From an uncultured Granulosicoccaceae bacterium (GTDB taxonomy: Bacteria > Pseudomonadota > Gammaproteobacteria > Granulosicoccales > Granulosicoccaceae), in the NCBI GenBank assembly GCA_938003855.1, contig CALKXD010000243.1, positions 1-36,645 on the forward strand: a DNA stretch of 36,645 nucleotides, given 5' to 3'. Shown here in pieces: positions 11,221 through 36,645 of this stretch. Under the pieces are notes generated by a model. That model was not told the DNA's origin. It made no database searches and saw only the letters and a list, made by a program, of their open reading frames with translations. Within the stretch, counting starts at the first letter, position 1; the number at the start of each line of letters is the position of its first letter. The translations under genes were made by a program, and so were the position numbers.

Positions 11221-11228
11221 CCGACCCT

Positions 11229-11942
11229 ATGCACTGGCATTGTCATGCTGTTACTGACCCTGGCAAGGTTAGAAAACTGAATGAAGACAGTATCTTTCAC
11301 AGCGATGAAAAACAGCTGTGGGCTGTAGCCGATGGCATGGGCGGGCATCATCGCGGGGATATTGCCAGCCAGACAATTGTCAGGCACCTGCAGTCGTTCA
11401 ACTACGCTTCGCACAGCGGCATCACGGTTCAGCGTCTGGTCGACATACTACACACCGCCAACGATGAACTCATCGAGATTGCCCGTGTGGAATCTGCAGA
11501 TGTAGTCGCCAGCACCTGCGCTATCCTCAGTCGCAGCCACCACTCTATAATCTGCAGCTGGGTCGGTGACAGCCGCATCTACCGATTTCGTCAGGGCGAG
11601 TTAACTCAACTGACACGAGACCACAGCTACGAGTCACTGATCGACGATATGCGCAACAGCGGGCAAAACGTCGACGATATCATGGTCGATACGCAGACAC
11701 TGACGCGCGGCGTCGGTGCAGAACCCCTTTTAGAAGTTGAACACTGCCATTTTATACCCCAGCCCGGAGACCGCTATCTACTGTGCACTGATGGACTCTA
11801 CAAAGAAGTACCAAACCCTGAACTGGCACAGCGCTACGCGGCCAACACAAGTGACGAGGCGCTGACCCGAGAGTTACATCAGGCCTACCTTGACAATGGC
11901 GCCAGGGATAACCTTGGCTTGATTTTAATAACCACAAGCTAA
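11229..11942 (+). CDS. pppA: T6SS PP2C-family phosphatase PppA
   Basis: PppA dephosphorylates the FHA protein and switches the T6SS off. PP2C metal-binding motifs are intact: VRKLNEDS near the start, AVADGMGGH, VGDSR, CTDGLYKE and ARDNLGL at the C-terminus. The product is about 237 aa, a single catalytic domain without membrane segments. I chose the ATG at 11229 because GGGAG (11213-11217) lies 11 nt upstream and the resulting N-terminus fits PP2C proteins. A GTG at 11211, overlapping the end of tagF, is an alternative that adds six residues. It is 171 bp before ppkA. Confidence 0.92.
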   Translation: MHWHCHAVTDPGKVRKLNEDSIFHSDEKQLWAVADGMGGHHRGDIASQTIVRHLQSFNYASHSGITVQRLVDILHTANDELIEIARVESADVVASTCAILSRSHHSIICSWVGDSRIYRFRQGELTQLTRDHSYESLIDDMRNSGQNVDDIMVDTQTLTRGVGAEPLLEVEHCHFIPQPGDRYLLCTDGLYKEVPNPELAQRYAANTSDEALTRELHQAYLDNGARDNLGLILITTS

Positions 11943-12058
11943 ATGCGAACCACTCAACACTATAGACCGGCCGCTGCCGTTTGTGACATGCATCAACTAC
12001 CGGTGCATAGGCAGGCAGATGGTCAACGCTGTGTTGGCCAGACGAGTGAACACGGCCC

Positions 12059-12073
12059 TCAACCAGTGGTTGA
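12059..12073 (+). promoter_or_regulatory. Palindrome upstream of ppkA (possible operator)
   Basis: TCAACCA-G-TGGTTGA is a perfect 7-1-7 inverted repeat, ending 40 nt before the ppkA ATG in the 171-bp pppA/ppkA gap. Its right arm overlaps a possible -35 (TTGAAT, then 17 nt and TACAGC). This suggests ppkA may have its own regulated promoter; no regulator is identified. Confidence 0.4.
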
Positions 12074-12113
12074 ATTATTGCATTTGACGTTGTACAGCTA
12101 AGGTAATTTTCCT

Positions 12114-17321: not shown

Positions 17322-17350
17322 GAACGGATCAGCCTGACGCTGATCCGTTC
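17322..17350. terminator. Strong bidirectional terminator-like hairpin
   Basis: GAACGGATCAGC and GCTGATCCGTTC form a perfect 12-bp stem with a 5-nt loop between two convergent stop codons (17310 and 17359). A short T-rich run (TTCTTTAGTT) follows on the plus strand. The position and stem strength make bidirectional termination likely, and it marks the boundary between modules. Confidence 0.8.
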
Positions 17351-17358: not shown

Positions 17359-19824
17359 CTACTGCCAGTTACCCACCAGTATGAAGGGCGCCCAGAAATA
17401 CGGGTGCGAAAGCTCCTCAATCTCCAGTACCTGCCTCTGTGCCGAACGCAGCGCACTTGCCTTACTGGCTCCGTCAGTGCCAAGCCCCTCATAGAAGCCA
17501 CTCATCAGCACCTGTGTCGCCACATCGGCCACGACCCACAAAGACCCAAGCACGCTACGTGCGCCGGAAGTCAGCGCAACACCACTCAGCCCCAGTGGCG
17601 CAAGGTCATTACCTTCGGCGGTTTGGCAAGCGCTCAAGATCAATAACTCCACCGGCTGGTCGGAAAACTCCTTGGGTTTAAACAGATCACTGAGCTCTCC
17701 GAGATCGATCAGGTCATCGTGCGTCATAATCCAGCTGTCTTCGACTTGTCCGCCAAAGTACCCGTGCGAAGCAACATGAACAATCTGGTACGAACTGTTC
17801 ACGACTTCATCTCTAAAAGTGTCTATCTTGAATGCATCATCGAGCAACACCGTTGAGGGCAGATCGTTCTGATCCGGTAGTTGCACCTCGGATTCAACCG
17901 CACCGAGGCGATGCCACAACCGCACACGCTCGTCATTGTCTGCTGAACGCAAGCTTTCGACAGAACCGCGTGTAGGTGGATTCGCACCGGGAGGCAGTGT
18001 CTCTGAAAACGCATCAACGTAATAGTCATCGGGCAACTTACTGATGGCCTCACCAGGCAGGCTCAGGCCAGCCACCAGTGTGCGACGTTTGCTTTTAGCC
18101 AACGGCTCAGCATTGAGTAACGTCAAACCCGGTGCCGAGGCGATTTCATAGGATTCCATCAGATACTCTTCGCCACTCCAAAGCGCAGCAAGCGGTATGG
18201 TTCGAAGGACACCGTCGGGGACAAAAAACAGTGTGGTGGAATTAGTTAGTTCCAGCTGCGCCCGCAAGGGTGTGATCACCCAGTCATAGACTCGTCCCGC
18301 ATGTACTTTTAGCGCGGCCTCATCTGACTCGAAATCGCGTAGCATCTCTGCCAGCAGAGTTACTTCAGAACGCAGCGTCGTGGCAGACACCGCTGACGAG
18401 TAATGATAATAAACCCCATCTATGTTCAGCAGTAGTGCCAACCGGTCCGGCAGTATTATCGGATACACGACTGCTGCTCCTGCGGCCAGATCAGCACCGA
18501 TGGAACTCGACTGGTTAATCACACAAGTGTCCCTGAAATAATCCTGCAGTTCAGAGCCTTTGACCTGCTCCATCACTGACTGCGCTTCGAAGAGCAGCGC
18601 CTGGCTATCGTCGTAGTTGGTGGTGGCATCAGATTGTCGCAGCAGTAAATCGGCCAATGCAAAATAGATTGGCGCGCGTGTCTCTTGAAAGGATGAGCGG
18701 CCATCAACGTAAGACACCGGGATATCCTGCCGAACCCGGTCGATATGCCTGATCGATCTGCGGTATGAATCTATCGCCGAAGCACTGTCACCGCGAGCAC
18801 GGTATATTTTTGCCAGATCCCACTCCCAGTCTATAGCAAGGTCATGTGCGTCAGGCGCCACACCCACCGCGCGTTCCAGCATCTCTATGGCACGCAATTC
18901 ATCGCCGGTTTCAAGGTACCAGTCACCCAGATACCCCAGGGCGGACGCCACTTGCCGTTTGTCTGCAAGTGCACCAGCCATCGCAACCACACTTTTAAGA
19001 GCCGGCACACCAATGTTATTAGCCGTGGCCCCACCAAAGATCGCCGACTCCCGACCTACGGACAGCGCCAATTCTGCGCGCGAGTAACCTTCAGGCATCG
19101 CGTCAATGCGCTTTAAGGCGTTGCGTAAAATTTCAATCGCATCGTCGGTATATGAGGCGAGTCTTGCAGCGCGGGCATACTTGATTCGTGCATTAGCCTG
19201 CAGCAAAAGACTCTGTGTTGAATCGGCCTCCAGCACGGCATCCTGTAAGGTACCGAACGCCACCTGAAAGTTGCCGGAATCCAGATGCCAGGTACCTAAT
19301 CGAACACCGGCGGTGGAAACCAGTTCAGCCACACCGGTATCAAGCGCGTGATCGAGGCTTGTTTCGAGCAGCGCCAACGGGTCAGCCAACGGCCCTTTGA
19401 ATGAGCGATTGTGTCTTGCCGCCGTGTGCAACTCGGCCAGTGATCCGGTGACCATGGATTGCAACGCCGGAAACGACAGTCCATTAGCCAGTGTCAGTGC
19501 TTCCTGCAAATCTACATCAGCACGATTATAAAACCCGATCCGTTGATAGGCTTCGCCACGTCGCAGCAGCAATTTTGCCAATGACAGTCCTACCGCTGAC
19601 CCCCTACTCGTCGACAGTAACGCGGTCGTTGTTTGACCGTCGGCACGTATTTGATCAATGATAGTTGACCAGTTAGTGATAGCTTCACGGTAGTTACCAC
19701 CCGCCACCGCTGCCTCGGATGATGGCACCGCACCGGTTAATTCCGTTTGTGCATTCACTGCTGTAGACGTGAGCACCGTTACTACGGCGAGTGTCTGCAA
19801 GATCTTTGATATTCTCATATTCAT
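17359..19824 (-). CDS. Exported TPR-CHAT domain putative cysteine protease
   Basis: The 821-aa product begins with a signal peptide (hydrophobic about 10-24, ending VNA-Q), so it probably acts in the periplasm or beyond. Residues about 40-400 are helical repeats of TPR type, with units such as EAYQRIGFYNRADVDLQEAL and LGDWYLETGDELRAIEMLE. The CHAT domain spans about 520-821: HVASHG with putative catalytic His687, LSACQTAEG with putative Cys733, then the hallmark GARSVLGSLWVVADVAT, and it ends PFILVGNWQ. Both dyad residues are present, so it could be an active separase/caspase-like protease. It starts 53 bp after the TpsB stop, with a weak Shine-Dalgarno, and is probably the third gene of the tpsA-tpsB operon. 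Substrate unknown; the giant exoprotein is the obvious candidate by context only. An ATG at 19818 is an equivalent alternative start. Confidence 0.85.
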   Translation of the reverse strand: MNMRISKILQTLAVVTVLTSTAVNAQTELTGAVPSSEAAVAGGNYREAITNWSTIIDQIRADGQTTTALLSTSRGSAVGLSLAKLLLRRGEAYQRIGFYNRADVDLQEALTLANGLSFPALQSMVTGSLAELHTAARHNRSFKGPLADPLALLETSLDHALDTGVAELVSTAGVRLGTWHLDSGNFQVAFGTLQDAVLEADSTQSLLLQANARIKYARAARLASYTDDAIEILRNALKRIDAMPEGYSRAELALSVGRESAIFGGATANNIGVPALKSVVAMAGALADKRQVASALGYLGDWYLETGDELRAIEMLERAVGVAPDAHDLAIDWEWDLAKIYRARGDSASAIDSYRRSIRHIDRVRQDIPVSYVDGRSSFQETRAPIYFALADLLLRQSDATTNYDDSQALLFEAQSVMEQVKGSELQDYFRDTCVINQSSSIGADLAAGAAVVYPIILPDRLALLLNIDGVYYHYSSAVSATTLRSEVTLLAEMLRDFESDEAALKVHAGRVYDWVITPLRAQLELTNSTTLFFVPDGVLRTIPLAALWSGEEYLMESYEIASAPGLTLLNAEPLAKSKRRTLVAGLSLPGEAISKLPDDYYVDAFSETLPPGANPPTRGSVESLRSADNDERVRLWHRLGAVESEVQLPDQNDLPSTVLLDDAFKIDTFRDEVVNSSYQIVHVASHGYFGGQVEDSWIMTHDDLIDLGELSDLFKPKEFSDQPVELLILSACQTAEGNDLAPLGLSGVALTSGARSVLGSLWVVADVATQVLMSGFYEGLGTDGASKASALRSAQRQVLEIEELSHPYFWAPFILVGNWQ

Positions 19825-19877
19825 GCTGCCAGTGTTAGGCGATTACCAATGTATTCCATACTGCTACAAAAAAGTCT

Positions 19878-21824
19878 CTATAACTTAGCAACGAGCTTTA
19901 AATGAATACCGCGTTCCTGAAGGCTGCTGCCATCCCGGCTGTCCCGGTCACGAAGCACGGACCCGAAATACAACTCGCCGGAAAATCTGGAGCGCAGCGA
20001 CCAGAGTATTCCCAACCCCACAGAGGCGAGCTTTTCATCGGCCTTAAAGAAATTTTTGTTGCGCCCGTAACCAACATCAAGAAATGGTGCAAGCTGAAAT
20101 GTTCCGAAGTCCCCTGATCGAAAAAACGGATATCGGAACTCTACCGAAGCCAGCACAGCATCATCCCTGACCAGTTCATTCTCACGATAGCCTCTGACAC
20201 TGGTGGCGCCGCCAAGAGCAAAGCGTTCCAGTGGCAGGAGTTCGGTGCTGGCCAGTTGCGCATCAACTTTCAACAACAACTGCGCCCGATCATCGAGGTA
20301 TCGGCGGGCATATTGAAACTGCCCCTGCAAAGTAAAAAATTCGCTGTCAGGCCGACTGCCGTCGTGCATCGTCGAGCCGAACATATCCAGCCCCATATTC
20401 AGTGTCGACCGAAATGCCAGAACATCTTTGCTGCCCCGTCGTATCAGGTCCTGCCAGATACGCGCAACCGCGACACGACTGCGTCCGTCTTCTTCGCCGC
20501 TGGAAAAAGAAAACGGCTCACCGGACAGGGTGTTTTTATTTTCCCGCAGAGCAAAGCCGGTTCCGACCGTCAGCAAGCCATTGACACTACGTTTGAGAGA
20601 ACGGCTGATCGATATATCAGCACCTAGTGTCTGGCTATCGATATCTATGGAATCAAAAGGCTCTTCAACAACTGTACTGTCTGCAATAGACACACTGGCC
20701 TTGACGCGGGTTTCTTCACTACTGATCGGCAATTCATAGACCGACGAGACATTGTACTTGTTCTGGTTACCACCAACAGTGATACCAAGCTCATCACCCC
20801 GCCCGGACAAATTGCGAAGGGTGCCGTTTAAAAACATTTGCTGTGATCCCAGACTCAAGGCGCCATGGTTGCTACCGGTAATACTAAAATCATAAGGACG
20901 CGCACGTGTCACCCTAAGGTTCAAAGCGGTTCTACCCGGCTCCGGCAATGCCTGTAATTGACCGTCCATACGGTCGATCAGCGGGTCGTCCAGCAACAGC
21001 TGAAAATTCTCCTGCAGCGCAAAGGAATTAAAAGGCTCGGCGGCATCTCTGAGGACCCGTTCAGAGATATACTTCTCTCGTAAATCACCTTCACCTTCTA
21101 TATTCAGATCTGCCAGCGTACCTTCTATAACACTAAAAACAATATTACCGGCTTCGACCTTTTGGTCCGGAAGGATCGCGCCGGAGTTTAGATAGCCTCT
21201 CTTCACATACGCCTGAGTCAACTGAATTCTGAGTTCTTCCAGGTCAGACAAACCGATTCGCCGCCCGACAAATGGCGCTGCCACCTGCCCCAGTGTGGCG
21301 TCATCAATCACGGTGTTACCTTCAAACTCCACGTTACTAAGAATCACATGGCGTCCCGGTGTCGACACAACTTCTTCTGTCTTCACAGCAGCAACGGTTG
21401 ACTCTGCGGTATCGGCAGCATCCTGGGTTGCACGTACAGGGGTTTCAGTCAGCAGCACTTGCGCCTCAGACTCCACTGTTTCAACAACCGTTTGTGCCGT
21501 TTCGACCAACGGCGTCTCGGTCAGTGTGACCGCCGGCGCCTGGTTGGCCGCCACTTCGCTGAAGACCACCTCTGCCGCACCAGATAAGCCACTTTGGCCA
21601 ACAGAGTCTGTCACACTGACCCAGTCGCCTAAACCGGCAGCCAGAGGCGCGGCATCTGACCTGGCAGCGTTTACCGGGCGTAATTCTACCAGCGTGACTT
21701 CTGCATTGTCATTGGCGGCTCCTGCCACGGCAGCGTCATAGTCATTTGCAGCAACCACGCTATGCAGACAGGCACAATGAACGGCAACCATACCCGCTAT
21801 AGTAGTTCTCGATAGCTTATGCAT
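19878..21824 (-). CDS. TpsB outer-membrane transporter (FhaC/ShlB family)
   Basis: This Omp85-type pore would secrete the TpsA partner encoded just upstream. The 648-aa product has a signal peptide (cut near residue 26, VVAA-ND) and then an unusual Ala/Thr/Glu/Val-rich extension (about 27-155) containing a repeated LTETP. POTRA 1 lies about 157-234 (VILSNVEFEGNTVIDDATL through VFSVIEGTLADL) and POTRA 2 about 235-305. A 16-strand-type barrel covers about 308-648 with the VRGY motif of the L6 loop at 543-546. The C-terminus ends LKLVAKL rather than in the usual aromatic. The ATG at 21824 has GAAGGAG 9 nt upstream and is one base from the TpsA stop, so translation is probably coupled. The frame is open to 22034, but that part overlaps the giant gene and is rejected. 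Confidence 0.9.
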   Translation of the reverse strand: MHKLSRTTIAGMVAVHCACLHSVVAANDYDAAVAGAANDNAEVTLVELRPVNAARSDAAPLAAGLGDWVSVTDSVGQSGLSGAAEVVFSEVAANQAPAVTLTETPLVETAQTVVETVESEAQVLLTETPVRATQDAADTAESTVAAVKTEEVVSTPGRHVILSNVEFEGNTVIDDATLGQVAAPFVGRRIGLSDLEELRIQLTQAYVKRGYLNSGAILPDQKVEAGNIVFSVIEGTLADLNIEGEGDLREKYISERVLRDAAEPFNSFALQENFQLLLDDPLIDRMDGQLQALPEPGRTALNLRVTRARPYDFSITGSNHGALSLGSQQMFLNGTLRNLSGRGDELGITVGGNQNKYNVSSVYELPISSEETRVKASVSIADSTVVEEPFDSIDIDSQTLGADISISRSLKRSVNGLLTVGTGFALRENKNTLSGEPFSFSSGEEDGRSRVAVARIWQDLIRRGSKDVLAFRSTLNMGLDMFGSTMHDGSRPDSEFFTLQGQFQYARRYLDDRAQLLLKVDAQLASTELLPLERFALGGATSVRGYRENELVRDDAVLASVEFRYPFFRSGDFGTFQLAPFLDVGYGRNKNFFKADEKLASVGLGILWSLRSRFSGELYFGSVLRDRDSRDGSSLQERGIHLKLVAKL

Positions 21825-21825
21825 C

Positions 21826-24800
21826 TTAGTAGGCTCCTTCACAATCGTGACCCAGTGCATCGGTGTCTGCCGGAATAAATGTCTCGAATCCCTGCGTTTC
21901 CGTCGGGATAAACAGGAAGTCGGTAATTTTCTTCTCCTTCTCGTTTTGTTTCTTTTTCGTTCCCGGACGAGTGATATCATCGAGAATATCAAGTAACTCG
22001 CTGGTAACATCAGTTGTGCCGGTGATAGAACCAATCAGCGGCAGTCCGCCATTGCCCGGTGTGGTTAGGGTGCTTGGTGCCCCCTCGATAAACGCTGCAC
22101 ACGGGTTGCGTGCCAGATCAGTCACATCGACGATGGTAGAATCCAGATCATTCACCACCGCGCTGACATCAAATATCGGTGACGTCAGGTTTAGCGCGCC
22201 ACTCACACCTGTTTCCGAGGCCGCCTGTATAACACTGCCACCCGAGGAGTTCGGATCAAGCAATGCCAGCACGCCAGGTGAGGTAAGGCGATCGCCCCCG
22301 ACGTTAACTCCTCCCGGTGCCAACGTTACCCGTGTATCTATAGTGACATCGCCACCGGTTCCACCACCGGCGTTTGCCTGAACATAAGCCTGCTCAAGCG
22401 TCAGGATGTCACTGGTCACCGAAATTTCACCAGCGACGACGCCTGCCGAACCTTCCGTGGTCGACTCAATCAGGCCACGGTTAATAATGACGTTCTCTGC
22501 ACTGACGTCTACATCACCTGAACTGCCTACTTCTGATGTACTGAGTATTCGCGAGCCATCAGACAGAACAATTGACTCCGATTCGAACCCGTCTGCGGCA
22601 TTACCACCACCGAGAATTATATTGCCGCCGGAGCTGGTACCCGGAGCACCAGGCACAGAGTTGGTATTGGCGTTTGTGATCACACTACGGTTGGTTACTG
22701 TGATCGACTCACCGTCAACGTCAATTTCTCCTGCCGGTCCCGTACCGCTCGACGACGCAGTTAGTCTGGCGCCAGCAGTCAAATCAACCGCAGATTGATC
22801 CGGATTTAGATTCTGATCAGTGGCTACGATAGTGACATTACCACCGTTGTAACCATCCTGATCAGCACCGCTATAGGCGCTGGATGCCCTGATTGCCGGT
22901 CCGGATTCAGGTTCCTCATAGGCCTCGCCGCTTTCTGCTGCAGCCTGCTCAGCCGCTGCAACCGCTCGCAACCAGGCATCACCACCATCCATCATCAACT
23001 GGCCCGTGGTTATATTTATCGAGCCGCCACGATTGTTGCTGCCACTGGACCCGGAACTGATCTGTCCTTCGTTGAGCACCTCTGTCAGGACCGCAGTGGT
23101 AATGGTAATGCTGCCACCATCTTTATCAGGCCCTGCACCGCTGGACTCACTGTAGATACCAGTCCCCAGATCGACCACACCATCGGTAGTTTCACCTTCA
23201 TCGCTGAGTAATACGGCTGTAGCGTCTGCGTCAGTATCGGGCTCAGCCACACGCTCACTGTCTATAGACAGAGTCAACGCGGTGATGTCGATCGATCCAG
23301 CAGGACCGGCACCGGTAGAGCTCGACGTTATTTCACCGCCGTTTATTACATCGATCCGGTCGCTGGACACAACGGTTATATCCCCTGCCGGGCCACCTGA
23401 CGTGGTACTGCTTGATACTGCCGCGTTCTCGGCAATCAGTAGTGAACCACCTACCGTGTCTATACGGACTTCACCTTTACCAGTACCTGTTGCACCGGTG
23501 TTAGTAGATATCCGGGAGCCACCATTGAGCACCAGATCGCCTGCTGTGGTAGCTACCGCGACAGAGCCGGCACTTGCCGATGATGCAACGCCATCAGCCG
23601 GAGCCGCATCACTACTGATTCGGCTGTCACCCGACACGACAACACTCGCCGCAGTCACCTCGACCTTACCGGCATCACCGTCTCCCTCTGAACTCGACAC
23701 AATTCGACTGCCTGTATTCAGGGTGGTGGCTTGCGCTGTTGTTACCGTGATGTTACCCGCTGCGCCAGCAGACACTCCGGAATCAGAGTTCAAGCCTGTA
23801 CTGGCGCTGGTGATTTCACTACTATCCAGGTCAACTGTATCAACCGTTATAGAGATATCTCCGCCTGTGGCCGCTCCACTGGTTGTCGCATTAATCAGCG
23901 CGCCGGCCACTACCTTCAACGACCCGCTGTCCTCTATAGTAATTTGACCGGTCACATCGTCACCACCATTCGCCAGGGTAGACGATTGTGTGGCTATTTC
24001 TGTTTGCGCCAGCGGATCTTCGCTAACGAACCCGGTGAGCAGTATAGACTCACTGTTTTTGATCAGCACGCTGCCTGCTCCACCGGTACCGGTACTGCTG
24101 GATGTGATCTTACCGCCGGTAGACAAAGAAACAGTACCTCGGGTGGCACCGGGTTCTTTCGGGTCAGCGATAGTTGTATCAATAATGATAGCCCCCGCAC
24201 CACCAGCACCAGATGCTTCACTCTTTACCGAACTGCCCAATGCAACATCCAACTCGATAGCATTGATATTTACCTGCCCGGCGTCGCCTTCCCCGGAAGA
24301 ACTGGACGACACGGAACTGTCGAGACTCAACCGGGTCGCACCCTGAAGCGAATTAATGGTAATCAGACCCGCTCCTCCTTTGCCGGACGCCTCACTGGTA
24401 ATAAATGCATCAGTGACCAGCACATTACCCGTAGCCGATTCAACAATTATCGTAGCGGGAATGTTGCCATCTGTTTCGGTGTTGGTGGAGATGCGGCTCT
24501 TGCCAATCAACTGAACATCTTCAGTCGCGGTAACCTTGACATTGCCCGCAATAACGGTATCGTCGCTACCGAATATTTTGGTTGTTGTGCTTTCAATACT
24601 ACTGGCCCCGGATAACCCGACACCGACCGCACTAAGAGTAATGCCACCTGCATTTCCGTTACCTGAAGAACTCGACGAGACACGGCCACCCGCTGTCAGT
24701 GTCGCAACACCAGCCGACCGTATGTTAATCTCTCCCGCTGTGGCCTTACCGGTCGTCTCACTGGTTATCTCAGCATCAACTATCTCGATATCCGTCGCAT

Positions 24801-27800: not shown

Positions 27801-30800
27801 CAAGCCCTTCCGTTGAACTGACGATCAGCCCTTTTGTCATTGCTAACGTGTCTGCGGTCACTGCCACACTTCCGGCGTTACCCGCACCACTGGTATTACT
27901 GGCAATCTGCCCCTCGTTGATTTCAACCAGGGGGGCATGGATAACTATTTGCCCGGGGTTAGTTCCTGCGGTATTCGTACTGGTGGAAATAACACTCTTG
28001 GTTGCCACGGACAATCTTTCGCTGGCGTTTATGTTTACGGTGCCGGCACTGCCGTCCCCTTCGCCGGCAGTGGTCTCACTGATGACATTACTTTCATCCG
28101 AAAGCTCCACCAGTTTCGAAACAATAGTGACCTCTCCTGCATCACCGTCTCCACTGGAACTCGAAGAAATCTCACTGGCATTTTTCAGAGCCGTCAGTTC
28201 TTCAGTGGTAATGCGTATGTTACCGGCATTACCCGCCTTGAGTGACTCACTGTAGTCTTCGCCGGTGGTCTCACTGATGATTGCCCCTTCATCGAGCTCT
28301 AGCTCGGAACTGTTAATCGTAATCTCACCCAGTTCAGTACCATTGGTCGCTGTGGATGTGCGAATTTCACTGCCACGGGCAACCAGAATGTTAAGGTCAA
28401 CATCTATATCAACAAGCCCCGCACTGGCTGGAGACGATGTACCCGTGTGCGAACCCGTCTCTCCAACAGCCGGTATAGATGCCGTCGTGTTCTTACCGGT
28501 TGTTTCACTGCTTATGGTACTGCCGGCCAATACATGAAGGATGTTGGCGTCGATAGAAACAATGCCAGCGTTACCATCGCCGTCCGAGCTCGACGAAATC
28601 CGGCTGTTAATCAGCGACGTCAGACCGGTTTCTGTGTGGATGGTGATCTCTCCCGCATCACCGGCCTCCTGTGCGCCTATATCCAGGCCGGTGGTTTCGC
28701 TCGTCACCTCACCGTTGTTCATGGTCAGTGCGCCGGCAATAATGTCTATGGTTCCAGCCTCATCGCCATGTGTCGACGTCGTGGTGGTTATGCCGCTTTC
28801 TTCGTCTATCAGAACGGTACCGGCAACCTCAATGATCACGTTACCAGCATTCGCCGGCGAAAAATCATTAGTGTGGCTACCAGTCTCCGCCACCACGATT
28901 GCGGACGGTGCTTCCGGTGGATTATCCGTGCTGGTAAAGCTATCAATCGTGCTACCTGCAAGAAGCTGTAGACTGGCTGCGGAGATGTCAATCGTACCGG
29001 CGTCACCATCACCGTAGGAACTCGACGAAATCTGACTACCTTCGTCCAGGACAATCGCATTGGTAAACTCAAGCGTTACATCACCGGCATTACCGGCAGC
29101 GTCAACGGCATCATCGCCTGTGGTAATTGTGCGAATGGTGGAGCTGGTTATAGTCGCCTCCCCCATTTTTATGAAAACATCACCGGCTTTCAGTTGACCA
29201 CTGCTGCTGGTGTCAATGGTGGCAAAGTCTTTGTCGCCATTGATCATTACAAACGTGCTGTCCTCAATACCGTCTTCTTTGGCGGTAATAGTTACATCAC
29301 CTATTGCCGCTACCGCGTCATCGAAATCAACATCAGTGGGATCAAGACTGGCCAATGACGAATTCGGACCGGAAGTGGTCTTGATCGATGATCGAAAACC
29401 ACCACCCGACACCTCGCTGTTGATTGTCACCGATGTGGTATCTGTGATCTTTACCGTGCCTGGAGCTCCTGTTCCGGTGCTATTCGACTCAATGCGTCCG
29501 CCGTTTTCCAACAACACGGTACCACCGCTATTGTCTATAGAAATCTCCCCGGCGTTTCCGGTACCAGAAGTTGATGAAATCAACAATCCATCATCAATGA
29601 TCTGCACATCCGGCGAAATAACAAAAATATTGCCCGAGTCACCATCCTCGGACCTGGTATCGATTGTATTTCGGATGATGATCGACGGGCCTTCCAGTGT
29701 TTTATCCTGCCCATTGCTGGAGCCTCCGACAATATCGGTGATAACGGCTGTCGAGAGATCCAGCTCACCTCCCGCATTGAAGTTAAACGCACCACCCGTT
29801 CCTCCACCGGTTGCCACACTGCGGATCTTGCTATTCTGCACACTGATATCTGCGCCAGCCGTAATGTCAATATTTCCATTGTCACCAATACCGGTACCAA
29901 CAACCGCAACATCGCTCATCCGAATTGGATCAGTGCCTTCTCCCTGAATCAGTACGTCATTGCCCGCATTAATATCTATGTGCCCGCCATTTCCGGCGGC
30001 ACTTGTTGTAGAAATTATGTCCGAGCCTGTGACGGTAATATCAACGCCAGCACCAATAGTGATATCTCCCGCATCACCGGCACTGGATGATCTCACCTTT
30101 ATCTGGCTTTCGCCGTTGATATCGACTGAGTCATTTGCTGTCAACGTGATGGTGCCGCCTTCACCCGCACCAGTTGTGGTGGCAAATACTTGCGCACCGG
30201 TCAAAAGAATGTTCTCCGCCGTACCCGAAATATCGCCGCCCTTTGCATCACCGGCGGTATTCGTAGCCAGTTTTCCGCTGATGCTCAACTCTCCGTTGTA
30301 GCTGTTTCCACCCGCAGTTAACGGGGTAGCTGTGATGGATATATCTCCGGCCCCTGCCAACCCGGGTAATGCTGTTAGGTCCGAGCTGGCCGTGGTAATC
30401 TCTCCCGCAACGGAGACCTCCCCACTGGTAACAGTAATAGAACCTGCGCCACCCGCCCCACGCGCACTGGCTCTGACTATCGCTGTGTCTTTGACGTCGG
30501 TTTTATAGGCATCAATCTCTATATTTCCACCGACGCCATCACTATTGGTACTGGTAGTAATACGCCCATCAGAATCCAGTGTGGCAGTTGTTACTTCTAT
30601 AGCGATATCTCCACCGTCACCGGTAGTCTCAACCACTGCAGCATCAGGCGTTGTACTGTTGCTGACAATCTTGCCCTGATTAATGACATCCAGGCTTCCT
30701 CTGACAGAATTACCACTGATAATTCTTGGCAGAATAGAGATATCACCGCCGTCACCTGAATCATTAGTCGTGCTTGAAATGCTGGCAGAATCAACAATCA

Positions 30801-33800
30801 CCTCAGCCGACCTAATTACGATATCGCCACCAACTCCGTCACTGGTAGTCACCGTAGAAACTTCAGAATCACCAGACAGGTTTAAAGCTACATTGCCGTC
30901 TATGGTGAGAGAACCAGCAGCACCCGCACCGGCACTATCTTCAATGGAAGTGGTCGTGATCGCAGAACCACCCGCCAGCGTTGTCGTACCTGTATTGAGA
31001 TTATCAATCAATAAGGTGCCACCGTCTCCTGAACCTGCAGTTGTTGTCCGTATAGCACCATCGGTGTCTAGTGAAAGTGCTGTCGCAGCACTGATCGTCA
31101 GATCGCCTCCGTCTCCACTGGAGCCTTCAGTGGCAATGGTTCGGATTAAACCTTCGTCAGACACAGTGACTGTTGGCGACACAATCGCAACCGCACCGCC
31201 ATTGCCGGATGACAATGTCTGCGAACCAATAAAACTGCCATCGTTCTGGACAGTAACCACAGAGGCATTCACCGCCAGATCTCCGCCATCACCGGTTGCC
31301 GCAGAGGTAGTGGTGAGCTCGCCACCACTGGCAAGTGTCAGTGTTGTGCCTGTTCCTATCGTGACAGAACCACCGGCACCGCTGGCCCGGCTACTACTTT
31401 TTATCTGTCCGTTATCACTGATATCGACACTACTGGCAACTATCGACACACTGCCGCCTGTACCGGCGCCCGTGGTGCGTGTCCCGATAAATGACCCGGT
31501 GCCTTCGACTGTCACCTGATCCGCCTCAACATCCAGAGCGCCACCTGCACCGGTGCCGCCAGTTGCAGTCGCCACCACAGCACCATCAGCCAGGGTCAAT
31601 TCAGCGCTGTCTTGAATAGTTATACTGCCTCCGCTGCCAGCACCTGCACCGGTATCAGTAGTATTGCTTGCAATAAAAGCATCACTGCCCAGAGTAATGG
31701 TACCGGTGCCGAGGTTATCCAGGGTAAGACTGCCACCGGCACTTTTGCCATTGGTGTTAGTTGTGACAGATCCGCCCGTATCCAGCGCTATCGTGGTATC
31801 GGCGCTAATAGTTATGTCACCACCAAGACCCGTGGCGGTACTGGCGCTGTTAGTCCTTATAGACCCTCTGGCAGTGACGCTGACCGTCGGTGCCACCAGA
31901 GACAGTGCTCCACCATTCCCGCCACCCGTGATCACAGTAGAGATGGCGCTGTTGTCACCATCAACCGTTATTGAATCTGCGTCAATACTGATCGCCCCGC
32001 CTGCCCCTCCGGCAGTAGCGATCGTAGTAATTTCTGCCCCACTGAACACATCGACGTCGGTCGAGTCACCAATGGTGAGTTCCCCACCGTCACCATCCCC
32101 TCTGCTTGTGGTTTTCACGGTAGCATTATCCGTGAGTGTAAGCACAGGCGTATCCAACGTGACAGCTCCACCTTCTCCTTCGCCTGTCGTGCGGGTGCCG
32201 ATATAGGAATCAGTGTCTTTTACGATGATCAAATCCGCATCGATCATCAAAACGCCACCGTCAGCAATGCCGGATGTCGCCGTGGCTATACTGCCACCAC
32301 TCTCCGCGGTTACGCCGGTGCTTCGTGTTATATTTATCGAGCCACCGACACCCGCGCCTGACGTGGCTAAACCGGTATTTGAAGCAATGAAACTGTCGCC
32401 TTTCAGGGACACAGAACCCACACCCTGATTATCGATTGTAACAGCACCGCCATTACCTTTATCACTGGCGCTTGTGGTTATTGAACCTTCAGTATCCAGT
32501 TCTACGAGGGTACTTGCCTCTATGACTAACGAACCACCGGCCCCGACATCAGAAGTAGATGTCTTTACAGCAGCTTTATTTGTTACTGCCACCGTGGGGG
32601 ATGTAATTGCCAGTGCACCGCCATCTCCCGCACCGGAAGCAACTGTCGAAATAACTGAGTTTTCACCGTCAATTGCTATACCACTGGCGTCAATTGTCAC
32701 CGCCCCGCCATTACCAGCATCCGAAGTTATCGACGTAATTCCTCCACCGCTCGCGATGGTCAGATCAGTGGAACTTCCGATATCCAGGGATCCACCATCA
32801 CCCGCACCAGTGGTGGTACTTTTTACCCGTCCATTGTCCGACACTTCCAGCAGCGGCGTGACCAGATCTACAGCACCACCGGTTCCGGAACCCGTTGTAC
32901 GACTGCCGATATAGGAATCGTCGTTTTTAACAACAACCTTGTCAGCATCGACTGTAATAGCGCCGCCATCTGCTGATCCGGAAGTCGCACTGGCGATACT
33001 CGCACCACCCATGACAGTCACGTCGCTGCTGCGCTGAATATCTATGGCACCACCGAGACCGGTGTCTGTTGCACTCGATGCGATAAAACCGCCCGTATCC
33101 AGAGTCACTGTGCCTGCCGGATCATTATCAATGAGTATGTCACCGGCGTCCGCTCGACCGTCAGTACTTGAGGTGATAGCGCCGCTTGCGCTTACGGTAA
33201 TTGCTGGAGAATTAATCTCAACAGCACCGCCAGAAGCCGCCGCTGTTGCGGTATCTGTGGCAGCACTGTTCAAACGGGCATTGTTGGTAACGGTTAATTC
33301 ATCTGTGGTTAGCCGAACCACTCCACCTTCGGCGGTGCCTTCCGTGCGCGTACCGAGGAATGACTTTGCATCCGCGATGGTAACCTTGGCGACCTCTTTA
33401 CCGGAACCGCCAATCGTTATTGCCCCACCGTCTCCCCGACCGGTTGTCTCTGTAACAATCACACTGCCGTCAGCCAGTGACAAATCACTGCTATTGCTTA
33501 TTTCAATGTCTCCGCCGCTACCTGCACCGGAACCGGCATCACTACTGCTCGACGCAATAAATCCGCCGCTGTCCAGCACGATAGTCCCGGCAGGGTCATT
33601 GTCGATCGTGATTTCACCCCCCGCAGCACGACCCGCGGTGCTGGTGGACACACCACCACCACCGGTCAGCGTAATGGCAGGCGAGACAATCTCAATCGCG
33701 CCACCCAATACACCCGAACTGGTATCTTCACTGGCATTGGATTTAATTTTTGCTTTATCAGTAACCGACAATTCAGGTGTGGTTATGTTGACCAGGCCGG

Positions 33801-36645
33801 CATTACCCGCACCGTCCGTGCGTGTGCCGATAAACGAATCTTCGTTGTTTACAACAACCCTGGTAACGACACCCGCTGAACCACCGATCTCAATGCTTCC
33901 ACCTTCACCGCGACCCGTAGTCTGCGACAAAACTGCACCACCAGTCTGCACCGACAACTCGGCGCTGTTTATTATCTCGATCGATCCACCAGTACCTGCG
34001 CCTGAACCCGTATCACTAGTTGCAGAAACGATAGCACCATCGTCTTCCAGAAGGATATTTCCTGCTGCCGCATTGTCTATGGTGATGTCACCGCCAACCG
34101 CTCTGCCATCGGTACTGCTTGAAATCGTTGATCCAGCCCCGGAAACTGTAATATCCGGTGAATTAATATTGATAGCACCCGCCGTGGCCCCGGTGCTGGC
34201 GCTGTCTGCACCATTGCTTGTTACGCTCCCGTCGTTTTCCAGTACAATCTCAGGTGTTGTAATTGAAATTGCGCCACCCGCGGCCGATCCTTCCACACGA
34301 GTTCCAATAAACGAATCACTATCACTGACTGCTACCTTCAAGACTTCTTTTCCAGCACCACCAATAGTGATGTCGCCTCCGTCACCAGTGCCTGAGGTCT
34401 CCGACAGCACAGCGCTATCTCCCGACACCGCTAACTCGGCACTGTTGGCAATTTCTATCGAACCGCCGGCACCGGAGTCGATTGTATTCGACGCCACAAA
34501 TGCCTCACCGGCCACTGTCATAGTGCCTGTTGTCTGGTTATCGATATTAATATCACCACCAGCCGCATCACCGGCACTACTGCTCGAAATTGCAGCGGAA
34601 GTGTCTAGTGAAATTACCGCTGAACTGATGTTCAACGCGCCACCCGCGCCACCCGCCGAGGCGGTGGCAGCGCTGTTGGTTTTCACTTTGCCGCTGTCAG
34701 ACAAAGTAAGCTCATCAGTCGTGAGGGTAACTTTGCCTCCTGCGCCGGACGCCGAAGCGCGGGTGCCTATAAATGAGCCAGTATCAGTCACCGTCACCGT
34801 CGAAGCAGCCAGGTTGATGTCGCCGCCTGCTGCCGCACCGTTGGTTACTGTGGAAATCGAACCGCCATTGTCAACAATAACGTCCGCTGTGCCGCCAATA
34901 AAAGCGACCGCGGGAGCTGCAGATGATGTTGTATTGATTCTTAGTTCGCCGCCGGTTCCTGTCGCCGTACCGGTGCTGACGGTTTTCACCTCAGCACTAT
35001 CAGAGACGGTTAACGCTGGTGTGCTTATCGTTAGTACACCGCCGGTTCCCGAACCGGTGACCAGTGTGGTCAGTTCGGTTCCCGAACCTGTCAGTGAAAT
35101 GGCTGCTGAGCTGTCTATAGTCAGATCGCTACCGTCAGCGGTGCCGGTACTAACACTCGAAATGCTGCCGTTATCAGACATATTCAATGTCGGCGCGGTT
35201 ATCGTAACCGACCCGGCGCTCCCGCTGCCGGTAGCACGCGCTCCGATGCTGGAACCGGTCCCCGTTACGTTCACCACAGTCGCAGCTACTGTGACGTCAC
35301 CACCATCACCGGCCGCTGAACTCAGAGTCGTCACATCACTGCCCGTCATAACGGTAACCGCAGAACTGTTGGTAATCTCCACAGCTCCACCGGTGCCCGC
35401 GCCACTGGTGCTCGAGGCAATGTAGGACGCTCCATCAAGGACAGTTGTTCCGGTACCCTGGTTGTCTACAGTAACTTTTCCACCGGTCGCAGAACCCGCC
35501 GTACTGGTCGAGATTGCGCCCTGAGTATCGAGCTTCACAGTAGCAGAGTTGATGTTAATAGCCCCACCGGTTGCAGCACTGGTGGCCGTCGACGTTCCGT
35601 TGCTTTTAACCCTACCATCGTCATCTACATTCAGTTCCGCAGTGGTGATCGTGATCGCACCGCTATCACCGGAACCAGATGTTACGGTACGGATCTCTGA
35701 GCCATCATTTGTCACAGTCGCCGAAGTTGTTGCGATAATATCGATGTCCCCACCCGCACCGGCCGCAGAGGTACTACTGGATACAACCCCACCATTCGAC
35801 ACATCGATCGTCGGTGCAGTCAGAGATATATCACCACCGCTGCCACTGCCGCTCGTTAAACTGGAAATACTCCAGTCATCAATGTTCAATGCATCGGATG
35901 AGATACTGATTGCGCCACCGGCACCGGCGTCGGTCGCCAGAGACGACATACTTACGCCGGCTGTACCGTCTACACCGGCACTATTAGTAATTTCAATATC
36001 ACCACCGGCACCGGCACCCGAACTACTCGAAGCGATAAAAGCATCACCGTCTAATACGACCGTACCCGCCCCTTGATTGTCTATGGTGATCTTGCCACCC
36101 GACGCCGCACTCGCTGTACTGCTTGTTATCGCCCCCAGCGTATCCAGTGTCACTGCCGCTGAGTTAACATTGATCGCACCCCCTGCTCCCGTCGCCGTCG
36201 CTGACGAGGCACTGTTGCTTTTTATCCTGCCGCTGTCTTCTACATCAAGCGTCGGTGCCGTCACCGTTACCGTTCCGGCTGCACCTGACCCTGTCGCTTT
36301 GCTCCCTATCGTGGAACCGGCTCCGGTTACCGTTACTGCTGTCGCATCTATTTCTACATCGCCTCCGGTCCCTGCACCAGAGGTCAATGTCGTTACATCG
36401 CTGCCTGCCTGCACCGTCACCGACGCACTGTTGTCGATATCTACTTTGCCACCTGTGCCTGCATCACTCGTGCTCGAGGCGATAAACGATCCGCCGTCCA
36501 GAACCACGGTTCCTGTGCCCTGGTTATCTATGGCTATCTGGCCGCCATTCGCTGCACTCGCTGTACTTGTCGTGATTGATCCCTGTGTATCCAGTGCCAC
36601 TGCTGCTGAATTCAGATTCAACGCTCCACCGGTTCCTGCAGCCGT
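21826..36645 (-). CDS. Giant TpsA-like beta-helical exoprotein, partial (N-terminus outside the window)
   Basis: The frame is open for 4939 codons to the right edge. The TTG at 36621 is not a real start, because the repeat pattern continues through the eight codons upstream of it. The N-terminal TPS secretion domain is therefore off-window. The sequence is almost wholly repeats of about 30 residues of the form GxAGxIxIxxxxLxLxxGSxISSSTxG, the pattern of cyanobacterial-type filamentous-haemagglutinin TpsA proteins, predicted to form a very long right-handed beta-helix. The C-terminus supports this: a GVSGALNLTSPIFDVS ... VDVTDLARNPC ... GGLP block is the same kind of ending seen in those proteins. 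I saw only two Cys, both within the last 95 residues. It is followed after 1 nt by tpsB. A surface adhesin or long fibre is the likely role; a toxin tip is not visible in this part. Confidence 0.88.
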   Translation of the reverse strand, partial: TAAGTGGALNLNSAAVALDTQGSITTSTASAANGGQIAIDNQGTGTVVLDGGSFIASSTSDAGTGGKVDIDNSASVTVQAGSDVTTLTSGAGTGGDVEIDATAVTVTGAGSTIGSKATGSGAAGTVTVTAPTLDVEDSGRIKSNSASSATATGAGGAINVNSAAVTLDTLGAITSSTASAASGGKITIDNQGAGTVVLDGDAFIASSSSGAGAGGDIEITNSAGVDGTAGVSMSSLATDAGAGGAISISSDALNIDDWSISSLTSGSGSGGDISLTAPTIDVSNGGVVSSSTSAAGAGGDIDIIATTSATVTNDGSEIRTVTSGSGDSGAITITTAELNVDDDGRVKSNGTSTATSAATGGAININSATVKLDTQGAISTSTAGSATGGKVTVDNQGTGTTVLDGASYIASSTSGAGTGGAVEITNSSAVTVMTGSDVTTLSSAAGDGGDVTVAATVVNVTGTGSSIGARATGSGSAGSVTITAPTLNMSDNGSISSVSTGTADGSDLTIDSSAAISLTGSGTELTTLVTGSGTGGVLTISTPALTVSDSAEVKTVSTGTATGTGGELRINTTSSAAPAVAFIGGTADVIVDNGGSISTVTNGAAAGGDINLAASTVTVTDTGSFIGTRASASGAGGKVTLTTDELTLSDSGKVKTNSAATASAGGAGGALNISSAVISLDTSAAISSSSAGDAAGGDINIDNQTTGTMTVAGEAFVASNTIDSGAGGSIEIANSAELAVSGDSAVLSETSGTGDGGDITIGGAGKEVLKVAVSDSDSFIGTRVEGSAAGGAISITTPEIVLENDGSVTSNGADSASTGATAGAININSPDITVSGAGSTISSSTDGRAVGGDITIDNAAAGNILLEDDGAIVSATSDTGSGAGTGGSIEIINSAELSVQTGGAVLSQTTGRGEGGSIEIGGSAGVVTRVVVNNEDSFIGTRTDGAGNAGLVNITTPELSVTDKAKIKSNASEDTSSGVLGGAIEIVSPAITLTGGGGVSTSTAGRAAGGEITIDNDPAGTIVLDSGGFIASSSSDAGSGAGSGGDIEISNSSDLSLADGSVIVTETTGRGDGGAITIGGSGKEVAKVTIADAKSFLGTRTEGTAEGGVVRLTTDELTVTNNARLNSAATDTATAAASGGAVEINSPAITVSASGAITSSTDGRADAGDILIDNDPAGTVTLDTGGFIASSATDTGLGGAIDIQRSSDVTVMGGASIASATSGSADGGAITVDADKVVVKNDDSYIGSRTTGSGTGGAVDLVTPLLEVSDNGRVKSTTTGAGDGGSLDIGSSTDLTIASGGGITSITSDAGNGGAVTIDASGIAIDGENSVISTVASGAGDGGALAITSPTVAVTNKAAVKTSTSDVGAGGSLVIEASTLVELDTEGSITTSASDKGNGGAVTIDNQGVGSVSLKGDSFIASNTGLATSGAGVGGSINITRSTGVTAESGGSIATATSGIADGGVLMIDADLIIVKDTDSYIGTRTTGEGEGGAVTLDTPVLTLTDNATVKTTSRGDGDGGELTIGDSTDVDVFSGAEITTIATAGGAGGAISIDADSITVDGDNSAISTVITGGGNGGALSLVAPTVSVTARGSIRTNSASTATGLGGDITISADTTIALDTGGSVTTNTNGKSAGGSLTLDNLGTGTITLGSDAFIASNTTDTGAGAGSGGSITIQDSAELTLADGAVVATATGGTGAGGALDVEADQVTVEGTGSFIGTRTTGAGTGGSVSIVASSVDISDNGQIKSSSRASGAGGSVTIGTGTTLTLASGGELTTTSAATGDGGDLAVNASVVTVQNDGSFIGSQTLSSGNGGAVAIVSPTVTVSDEGLIRTIATEGSSGDGGDLTISAATALSLDTDGAIRTTTAGSGDGGTLLIDNLNTGTTTLAGGSAITTTSIEDSAGAGAAGSLTIDGNVALNLSGDSEVSTVTTSDGVGGDIVIRSAEVIVDSASISSTTNDSGDGGDISILPRIISGNSVRGSLDVINQGKIVSNSTTPDAAVVETTGDGGDIAIEVTTATLDSDGRITTSTNSDGVGGNIEIDAYKTDVKDTAIVRASARGAGGAGSITVTSGEVSVAGEITTASSDLTALPGLAGAGDISITATPLTAGGNSYNGELSISGKLATNTAGDAKGGDISGTAENILLTGAQVFATTTGAGEGGTITLTANDSVDINGESQIKVRSSSAGDAGDITIGAGVDITVTGSDIISTTSAAGNGGHIDINAGNDVLIQGEGTDPIRMSDVAVVGTGIGDNGNIDITAGADISVQNSKIRSVATGGGTGGAFNFNAGGELDLSTAVITDIVGGSSNGQDKTLEGPSIIIRNTIDTRSEDGDSGNIFVISPDVQIIDDGLLISSTSGTGNAGEISIDNSGGTVLLENGGRIESNSTGTGAPGTVKITDTTSVTINSEVSGGGFRSSIKTTSGPNSSLASLDPTDVDFDDAVAAIGDVTITAKEDGIEDSTFVMINGDKDFATIDTSSSGQLKAGDVFIKMGEATITSSTIRTITTGDDAVDAAGNAGDVTLEFTNAIVLDEGSQISSSSYGDGDAGTIDISAASLQLLAGSTIDSFTSTDNPPEAPSAIVVAETGSHTNDFSPANAGNVIIEVAGTVLIDEESGITTTTSTHGDEAGTIDIIAGALTMNNGEVTSETTGLDIGAQEAGDAGEITIHTETGLTSLINSRISSSSDGDGNAGIVSIDANILHVLAGSTISSETTGKNTTASIPAVGETGSHTGTSSPASAGLVDIDVDLNILVARGSEIRTSTATNGTELGEITINSSELELDEGAIISETTGEDYSESLKAGNAGNIRITTEELTALKNASEISSSSSGDGDAGEVTIVSKLVELSDESNVISETTAGEGDGSAGTVNINASERLSVATKSVISTSTNTAGTNPGQIVIHAPLVEINEGQIASNTSGAGNAGSVAVTADTLAMTKGLIVSSTEGLDSGNAGEINIAIAGTMTLADASQVSSSSSGGGDAGTVTITGETVELSGASKIDSETTGSAGTASAGTVQITTTNKLIVGEDSVVSTSTSTAGADAGEVIIHSPELQLTEGEITSKTSGAGNAGNITVAVDELALVSGKITSSTEGTGNAGVIDIDVSDDMTLADGSQISSSSSSAGNAGQIDILATSVALAGESTIESATSSDEGMANAGTITIEAHEEIVVSDKSKITTATSTAGTEPGQINLTAPEIEILESEVISGTSGEAKAGDVTVAATTLDMVKGQISSNSSGNGNAGTISIDATTVDMLDGSIVQSETSGNSASASAGTVVVNAADSLLISGKSQISTSSSTGGSSPGDVTIVATTVDLVEGLITSETSGVGKAGVIDIHTSDDTVLLDASRLSSSSTGAGSAGEVTIQSKNLLVAGDSAIESTTQLGPNGETTADAGTVLITVDDTVTVSGKSVISTTTATKGTGALTDSGLVPGSIKISGVNVALLEGEVTSETTGEGNAGVVDIDVSDEVALSLSSRVSSSSSGFGSAGSVSVDGNQLTLSDSSVIESVTTSTDAASTANAGNVSVNTTEDILLTGNSAISTNTSTNGSVPGEILVTSATGDIVLTESAITSQTTATGQVGKGKAGVITITALDGETLLSEGSRISSSSAGDGDAGAVAVTSGSVILTAESKIESETTNAADGESQANPGSVTVTASEKVQVLDGSSISANTATSNTTKGTVNVASGIVELIGGSITSLTEGPGDAGTVTIDNAIRDENGDIESKGRLSVTGGGRIASGTDGAGSPGEVMLLNSGSIFLAGVQDSQGNISTEALSGSLAGLSSGNIVIKDAGNLVLSAGSSINLQSEGGADAGNVTIEVDSLELVGGSITSSTIGLNNDETPAGSAGNIKIVTTGATVLTAESQILSRSLGDGDAGTVSIKADSLELSGNSIIESTTTGENNIDLESPSVAEAGAVDILVKNNVSLSGKSRISTSTATNGVDSLAGAITIDATDIEIVDAEITSETTGKATAGEINIRSAGVATLTAGGRVSSSSSGNGNAGGITLSAVGVGLSGASSIESTTTKIFGSDDTVIAGNVKVTATEDVQLIGKSRISTNTETDGNIPATIIVESATGNVLVTDAFITSEASGKGGAGLITINSLQGATRLSLDSSVSSSSSGEGDAGQVNINAIELDVALGSSVKSEASGAGGAGAIIIDTTIADPKEPGATRGTVSLSTGGKITSSSTGTGGAGSVLIKNSESILLTGFVSEDPLAQTEIATQSSTLANGGDDVTGQITIEDSGSLKVVAGALINATTSGAATGGDISITVDTVDLDSSEITSASTGLNSDSGVSAGAAGNITVTTAQATTLNTGSRIVSSSEGDGDAGKVEVTAASVVVSGDSRISSDAAPADGVASSASAGSVAVATTAGDLVLNGGSRISTNTGATGTGKGEVRIDTVGGSLLIAENAAVSSSTTSGGPAGDITVVSSDRIDVINGGEITSSSTGAGPAGSIDITALTLSIDSERVAEPDTDADATAVLLSDEGETTDGVVDLGTGIYSESSGAGPDKDGGSITITTAVLTEVLNEGQISSGSSGSNNRGGSINITTGQLMMDGGDAWLRAVAAAEQAAAESGEAYEEPESGPAIRASSAYSGADQDGYNGGNVTIVATDQNLNPDQSAVDLTAGARLTASSSGTGPAGEIDVDGESITVTNRSVITNANTNSVPGAPGTSSGGNIILGGGNAADGFESESIVLSDGSRILSTSEVGSSGDVDVSAENVIINRGLIESTTEGSAGVVAGEISVTSDILTLEQAYVQANAGGGTGGDVTIDTRVTLAPGGVNVGGDRLTSPGVLALLDPNSSGGSVIQAASETGVSGALNLTSPIFDVSAVVNDLDSTIVDVTDLARNPCAAFIEGAPSTLTTPGNGGLPLIGSITGTTDVTSELLDILDDITRPGTKKKQNEKEKKITDFLFIPTETQGFETFIPADTDALGHDCEGAY
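21834..21840 (-). promoter_or_regulatory. Ribosome binding site of tpsB inside the end of the giant gene
   Basis: The minus strand reads GAAGGAG, 9 nt before the ATG at 21824, and also encodes Glu-Gly near the giant protein's C-terminus. This overlap supports translational coupling. Confidence 0.65.
24400..29100 (-). repeat. Zone 3 of the giant gene: roughly 4-coil super-repeats
   Basis: Coils recur in the order EITSxTSGxGxAG, SQISSSSSGxGxAG, SxIESxTT...AG, SKISTSTxTxGxxPG. The IESxT-type coils lie near 24595, 24970, 25750, 26130, 26515, 26870, 27210, 27645 and 28080. The usual spacing is 340-440 nt, about 127 residues, with one doubled interval. Two units carry a related ETGSHT insertion. 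Boundaries are approximate. Confidence 0.7.
29100..31200 (-). repeat. Zone 2 of the giant gene: irregular coils
   Basis: The coil pattern persists, but the fixed order of zones 1 and 3 is lost. It includes longer, more varied segments such as one encoding LEGPSIIIRNTIDTRS, and a non-repeat stretch near 29190-29440. It is a transition between two repeat families. Boundaries are approximate. Confidence 0.55.
31200..36645 (-). repeat. Zone 1 of the giant gene: roughly 5-coil super-repeats
   Basis: Coils recur in a fixed order: a FIASST-type coil, a TTxTSGxG coil, a FIGTRTTG-type coil, an xIKSNxxxTA coil and an xISSSTxGxA coil. FIGTR-type coils lie near 34765, 34305, 33828, 33355, 32908, 32195 and 31485. 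The spacing is about 450-480 nt (some 155 residues), lengthening to about 710 nt for the last two units. Boundaries are approximate. Confidence 0.75.

Follow-up and report, generated by a model that had tools for sequence, protein, structure and literature searches.

The window analysed here, that is, the whole stretch of DNA, is one entire contig (C243, 36,645 bases) of a 6.8 Mb genome. Its right part is occupied by three genes on the minus strand, and a re-check of the open reading frames gave the same order, coordinates and gaps as the initial annotation. The first gene (21826..36645) encodes the C-terminal 4,939 residues of a giant TpsA exoprotein, which is repetitive and beta-helix-like. 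Its stop codon is located at 21826-21828, and the frame is open up to the contig end at 36645. After a gap of 1 nt, the second gene (19878..21824, minus strand, with ATG at 21824) encodes TpsB, a ShlB/FhaC-type Omp85 transporter with a POTRA domain and a long N-terminal extension. The Pfam search of this protein gave PF08479 (POTRA_2, 5.4e-18), PF03865 (ShlB, 7.8e-28) and PF01103 (Omp85, 4.8e-17), and the ShlB-type POTRA and the Omp85-type barrel of a type Vb transporter are both present. After a further 53 nt, the third gene (17359..19824, minus strand) encodes a TPR-CHAT protein of 821 aa with a signal-peptide-like start and the residues His687 and Cys733.

A stem of 12 pairs (17322..17350), which is terminator-like on the plus strand, lies between the convergent CHAT and OmpA genes. 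However, the terminator-like sites of the window were overall at chance level (5 vs 4.7 expected), and so were the promoter-like sites (4 vs 3.2 expected). The word operon would therefore describe the gene layout only. The left part of the window (14-13976) holds a type VI secretion cluster, in which Pfam recognized TssA, Fha, TssJ, TssK, TssL, TssM, TagF, a PP2C phosphatase and a Ser/Thr kinase, and FGE-sulfatase-like and OmpA proteins are encoded between this cluster and the trio. Kinase and TssM-type genes also flank the trio in two other genomes of the family (by Pfam in L061, and by the same cluster in L048), and L048 also retains the FGE-like and OmpA genes.

In the third protein, Pfam found the CHAT domain (PF12770, E 1.7e-52) as well as TPR. 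The CHAT domain has the His-Cys dyad, and proteolytic activity is predicted. The dyad had been described as intact, and this holds well beyond the window: both motifs, His and Cys, were found in all 79 relatives with a complete C terminus (77 by pattern, and L051 and L116 by eye), a count that leaves out L049, which is cut by the contig end. Furthermore, His687 and Cys733 are invariant in 69 aligned rows. Meanwhile, three of eight CHAT proteins from cyanobacterial plasmids match neither the His-motif nor the Cys434 pattern, and thus a more distant branch of the family exists.

The structure model of the window CHAT protein reached a pLDDT of 92 (69 sequences). In the fold search, the best match was Csx29 of Craspase (Z 29.4, rmsd 4.8 A over 566 residues, 12% identity), followed by separase (Z 23.4 over 312 residues) and, lower, by gingipain RgpB (Z 18.7). 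Sequence searches gave less: phmmer of the CHAT part against the PDB chains returned one match, at E 0.4, and the whole-protein profile had 186 matches among the PDB sequences, of which the 60 listed look TPR-derived. Among the PADLOC families of anti-phage defence systems, there was one marginal match for the CHAT protein (BovA, E 0.0009, 16 bits) and none for TpsB, and a place among these systems was set aside.

There were some further observations on this protein. The transmembrane anti-sigma factor DdvA (8rot and 8rw5) matches most of the CHAT model (Z 19, 554-563 residues aligned), and judging from the model, it is perhaps another membrane-tied TPR-CHAT-like fold. Cys434, in the ELQDYFxDxC region between TPR and CHAT, is also invariant in the 69 aligned CHAT proteins; besides it and the catalytic Cys733, the window protein contains no further Cys. 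As an idea, Cys434 might act as a redox latch or form a bond with the invariant Cys of the TpsA tag described below. In addition, the window genome has a second CHAT protein (L044 10081-12939, contig C165) of 952 aa with no other Pfam domain.

Because the 5′ end of the window TpsA gene is off the contig, its TPS domain is outside the window, and Pfam found no domain in the 4,939 residues present. The identity of the protein as a TpsA comes from its C-terminal tag and from the orthologue in genome G012, a frame of 4,786 residues that carries the Pfam TPS domain (PF05860, E 9e-27). The TPS domain was also found in other linked TpsAs by Pfam. In the TpsA part of the window, no tandem repeats were found at the DNA level. 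The C-terminal region of TpsA was modelled as a confident beta-helix followed by the tag at low confidence, and the model suggests that the tag is probably flexible. Another contig of the window genome (C184, L168, 8,943 bases) is a single open frame throughout and has the sole TPS domain found in this genome. This contig may carry the 5′ part that the window TpsA lacks, or it may be a different gene; between C184 and the window there is no exact end overlap of at least 15 bases and no common 25-mer, and their composition differs.

The TpsAs of this system end in a short motif with the consensus C-x(5-8)-SS[LF]-x3-GxGG[LI]P. In the window, it has the form C-x8-S-T-L-x3-G-N-G-G-L-P and, as located in the alignment of 33 TpsA ends, extends from Cys to Pro at 22039..22101 (minus strand), while the tag profile matched at 22012-22434 (E 2.9e-36). 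In this alignment, the Cys and Ser are invariant and the glycines are near-invariant. By pattern, the tag was found in 45 of the 59 low-complexity frames of 80 CHAT loci (see below), and it is followed by 8-70 residues (median 31). Many of these tagged frames are shorter than 1,000 aa. The 14 frames missed by the pattern include one of 853 residues in L120, in which the tag was seen by eye, and a divergent form in L090; by eye, the remaining ones are truncated at contig ends or do not resemble such TpsAs, with L065 being ambiguous. The same ending was found by pattern in cyanobacteria, in four of the seven separate TpsAs checked and in a natural fusion protein. Pfam gave no domain at the tag end of the tagged TpsAs scanned, and no fold match with an E value of 0.001 or below was obtained for the tag model.

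Two simple interpretations of the tag were rejected. Cleavage after an Arg of GxGG does not agree with the data, since x is Arg in only 25 of the 45 tags, and with x varying in this way, no fixed P1 residue is evident. A disulfide loop of two Cys is not a general trait of the TpsA end, either: a single Cys follows the tag in 23 of the 45 tagged frames, and no Cys follows it in the other 22. The second Cys near the end is a trait of some TpsAs, among them the window protein and the orthologues in G008 and G012. Within its 4,939 residues, the window TpsA contains just two Cys, which are 91 (in the tag) and 5 residues from the C terminus.

To estimate the recurrence of the gene set, the window CHAT was searched in 95 genomes (its own and relatives). 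Four further members of the family have the trio or a CHAT-TpsB pair, and two other genomes have it in rearranged form. When one genome per species was scanned, 368 CHAT relatives were obtained, and the best 80 were retained. These include Chromatium, Methylobacter, Undibacterium, Accumulibacter, Beggiatoa relatives, Desulfobacter, Desulfamplus and MAGs labelled Alphaproteobacteria. A rarity of tpsB beside CHAT homologues had been set beforehand as what would refute the proposed association, and this condition does not hold for this CHAT branch: TpsB was found in the fetched stretch of 56 of the 80 relatives, in 39 of them on the same strand and within 300 nt. The query alignment had 7 rows, 5 of which came from TpsB-linked loci, and favours this CHAT branch; with this bias and the choice of the best 80 of 368, the neighbour rate is valid for this branch and not for CHAT proteins at large. 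TpsB or a tagged TpsA was present in 61 of the 80 loci. In the 30 loci flanked by 5 kb or more of sequence on either side, TpsB was found in 25 and a tagged TpsA in 22. No TpsB was seen in the fetched stretch of 24 of the 80 loci, nor in 5 of the 30 with room, which counts against the explanation proposed below.

The gene order differs between loci, and two other types of neighbours were seen repeatedly. One cluster, with CHASE2 cyclases as its scanned members, is represented in 24 of the 80 loci, and another, with DUF928 as its scanned member, in 10. DUF928 was found in 9 of 274 gammaproteobacterial genomes, 7 of which carry the tag. Similar gene pairings had been suggested for cyanobacteria, and this turned out to be right: among ten cyanobacterial plasmid stretches picked by hand from the hit lists, TpsA adjoins or is fused to CHAT in eight and not in two. 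CHASE2-cyclase-type genes occur in four of the ten. For example, Planktothrix has haemagglutinin, ShlB, CHAT, DUF928 and CHASE2 within a single stretch, as does Pseudanabaena ABRG5-3, and a plasmid of Anabaena cylindrica has the same set with no ShlB within range. A compact version of the gene set was seen in L173 (contig C41 of G188), with TpsB, a CHAT frame of 507 residues and a TpsA frame of 587 residues; there, the CHAT profile match begins only past the TPR part, and the tag match of TpsA is partial.

The export of the CHAT protein, which the initial annotation had proposed from the signal peptide, is supported by two kinds of evidence. With a crude predictor whose background is 46%, 69 of the 76 CHAT frames whose 5′ end is intact (including the second CHAT of L050) have a signal-peptide-like start, vs 154 of the 337 other long frames in these loci (p = 4e-14). 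In addition, TpsA and CHAT form one frame of 1,756 residues on plasmid pREC3 of Acaryochloris marina (L163 4599-9869), in the order of TPS domain (24-229), beta-helix, tag (at residue 878), TPR and CHAT (1486-1754). In the alignment with the separate proteins of Kovacikia, the TpsA part of the fusion extends to about residue 900 and the CHAT part starts from about residue 951, which is aligned with residue 109 of the CHAT frame of Kovacikia and thus lies beyond the signal-peptide-like stretch of that frame. The CHAT part of the fusion has no signal peptide of its own. Because TpsA and CHAT are one polypeptide, the protease of the fusion can exit the cytoplasm only with TpsA, which is a stronger argument for export than the predictor. 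Judging from these sequences, the window CHAT protein is apparently exported, and its location is most likely the periplasm. In L163, the fusion gene is preceded by a DUF928 gene and followed by two genes annotated as toxin-activating lysine-acyltransferases.

The tag and CHAT also occur together at the level of whole genomes. A genome was counted as a tag genome when its match to the tag profile (A3) reached model position 115 or beyond; G053, G142, G291 and G587, which match the beta-helix repeats only, were therefore not counted. In the 274 gammaproteobacterial genomes, CHAT (at least 100 bits) was present in 13 of the 15 tag genomes vs 5 of the 259 others (p = 1.5e-16). Among the 94 of these genomes that have a TPS domain, it was present in 12 of 13 with the tag vs 2 of 81 without it (p = 2.4e-12). 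According to this table (12, 1, 2 and 79 genomes), nearly all other two-partner systems of the 274-genome sample lack both the tag and CHAT. In a second sample, comprising 349 genomes of the phylum, CHAT was present in 10 of 10 tag genomes vs 4 of 339 others (p = 1.5e-16). The two samples overlap in some tagless genomes and in the window genome, which is the sole tag genome common to both. Stricter cut-offs gave similar tables, with 12 of 15 vs 4 of 259 at 200 bits in the first sample and 9 of 10 vs 1 of 339 at 250 bits in the second.

Some of these genomes deserve comment. As for the two tag genomes counted without CHAT, the CHAT gene of G075 is disrupted, being spread over three frames, and the completeness of G146 is 73%. 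Meanwhile, G232 was counted with CHAT though its gene is cut before the catalytic part; in the second sample, the match of G463 is in pieces at contig ends, and that of G644 is exactly 100 bits. Only the top candidates of each genome were scored (3 for A1, 2 for A4, and up to 14 and 11 for A3), and thus the copy numbers are lower bounds and CHATs may be missed in any genome. G079 has at least nine contigs with a tagged TpsA and one TpsB match, and in G286, three tagged TpsAs are accompanied by one strong TpsB, weaker TpsB matches and further TPS domains. These numbers would fit a tag that serves as an address label read by common machinery. However, the tag, TpsB and CHAT are inherited together, and co-occurrence therefore does not prove that CHAT is the reader.

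To separate these partners, distances were compared in 40 loci by partial Mantel tests. The TPR distances were correlated with the tag distances beyond TpsB (0.42, p 0.001), and the TpsB distances were correlated with the tag distances beyond CHAT (0.46, p 0.001). Between the CHAT domain and the tag, there was no correlation with TpsB controlled (0.06, p 0.195), and a co-evolution of the CHAT domain with the tag was rejected, for it vanishes under this control. The outcome is thus mixed; it would suit docking by TPR together with a conserved catalytic half, for which it is weak evidence.

From the gene layout and these comparisons, we propose a two-partner secretion system with a third partner, in which a periplasmic TPR-CHAT protein would dock on the tag, cut the TpsA C terminus and so control release or display. 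We put the chances of this mechanism at about even. TpsA would enter the periplasm, where its N-terminal TPS domain would engage the POTRA domain of TpsB. The beta-helix would then thread outward and fold at the cell surface, and the flexible tag would be the last part of TpsA to leave. At this stage, the periplasmic TPR-CHAT protease would capture the tag, probably by its TPR solenoid, and the caspase-type site of His687 and Cys733 would cut the C-terminal segment. The cut would release the exoprotein or fix its final surface form, and would set the timing and form of display or shedding. One TpsB could serve several tagged TpsAs in this way. The Acaryochloris fusion retains the tag, which suits self-cleavage and equally a stop that is not cleaved. 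The initial annotation had linked the CHAT protein to maturation, release or surveillance of the exoprotein; since the TpsAs share a CHAT-associated C-terminal tag, maturation or release is now the best reading, whereas we infer the cleavage itself.

Several other explanations should be weighed against this proposal. The TPR-CHAT protein could be mainly a periplasmic holdase for quality control, in which the TPR part would keep the huge TpsA export-competent, the protease would clear stalled chains, and the tag would be a handle instead of a processing site. The substrates are indeed very long and repetitive (frames of 4,786 and at least 4,939 aa), a TPR solenoid is present, and the TPR part correlates with the tag while the CHAT domain does not. 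However, the dyad is kept in 79 of 79 relatives, which is beyond the needs of a holdase, and many tagged frames are below 1,000 aa, so we consider this function unlikely. A relay for contact sensing is less probable again. There, TpsA would be a surface receptor or contact probe whose binding activates CHAT, and the cut would signal inward through CHASE2 cyclases or harm the cell or its neighbour; the CHASE2-cyclase-type genes of 24 of the 80 loci and of 4 of the 10 plasmid stretches speak for it, as does the role of CHAT proteases elsewhere as triggered effectors, for example, Csx29. But the window trio has no adjoining CHASE2 gene, the window genome has no DUF928 match, and most loci are without both.

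We give slightly less credit still to a transpeptidase, which would cut at the tag and join TpsA to a surface anchor, like sortase or the caspase-fold PorU of type IX secretion. A short C-terminal motif, several tagged clients per TpsB and a fold family that includes the clan-CD gingipain RgpB (Z 18.7) agree with this reading. However, it has no known nucleophile or anchor, no hydrophobic and basic tail was seen by eye after the tag, and CHAT would have to act extracellularly, or in the periplasm before export is finished. Finally, the genes might have no functional link and be inherited together in a mobile block, with the tag being the natural end of this TpsA family. All parts co-inherit, their distances correlate, and some CHAT loci have no TpsB; yet the several gene orders, the natural fusion and the near-exclusive co-occurrence in two genome samples, even with tag and CHAT on separate contigs, make this the least probable of the explanations, and we regard it as very improbable.

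The proposed cut can be compared with known systems. FhaB/FhaC of Bordetella, with DegP, CtpA and SphB1, has the same TpsA/TpsB architecture, and PMC8263021 describes periplasmic C-terminal proteolysis that governs maturation and release there. The C-terminal prodomain of FhaB is trimmed by periplasmic DegP and CtpA, and the release of FhaB needs DegP (PMC8263021). The differences are that FhaB has a long C-terminal prodomain and proteases that are not caspase-like (DegP is of the HtrA family, according to PMC8263021), whereas here the set includes a gene for a predicted caspase-fold cysteine protease, and a short tag is common to the TpsAs. In the window and in the family orthologues, two Cys lie near the TpsA end, similar to HMW1, but a Cys follows the tag in only 23 of the 45 tagged TpsAs. 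HMW1 of Haemophilus is a TpsA anchored by a C-terminal segment containing Cys. Sortase, exosortase and PorU each read a short C-terminal motif on several surface proteins. We infer the same logic here, but the enzyme family or the secretion route differs, and anchoring would be hypothetical in our system.

As for the enzyme, what is known of CHAT proteases mainly concerns cytoplasmic immunity and separase-like enzymes. Csx29, the closest solved structure, is alike in its TPR and CHAT fold, but the window protein has a signal-peptide-like start and TPS neighbours instead. No Cas7-11 or CRISPR genes were among the window proteins scanned (T6SS, TPS, FGE-like and OmpA). Separase, which is eukaryotic and nuclear, shares a CHAT-like protease domain and a helical solenoid with the window protein. 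In the open-access literature, we found no paper that links CHAT to two-partner secretion, caspase-like proteases to two-partner secretion, or TPR-CHAT to periplasm and secretion, and the terms CHAT and haemagglutinin are absent from the available part of PMC3501461. The tag and its tie to CHAT are new here.

If the proposal is true, the widespread, exported branch tied to two-partner secretion is a new role for the CHAT family, and two-partner secretion gains a dedicated third partner whose clients can be spotted by a short C-terminal tag. Furthermore, the unexplained neighbours that recur on cyanobacterial plasmids (filamentous haemagglutinin-like proteins, CHAT, CHASE2 and DUF928) become a single testable system. 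A wider idea, which we hold possible though somewhat doubtful, is that CHAT and the tag constitute a sorting system for type Vb secretion, common to Cyanobacteria, Pseudomonadota and Desulfobacterota, in which a periplasmic separase-like enzyme would read a short C-terminal address on many surface proteins and process or anchor them.

In addition, one TpsB of this system (L050 7595-9727) has an N-terminal LysM domain (Pfam E 6e-05), and this case suggests that the long N-terminal extensions of TpsB may hold peptidoglycan.
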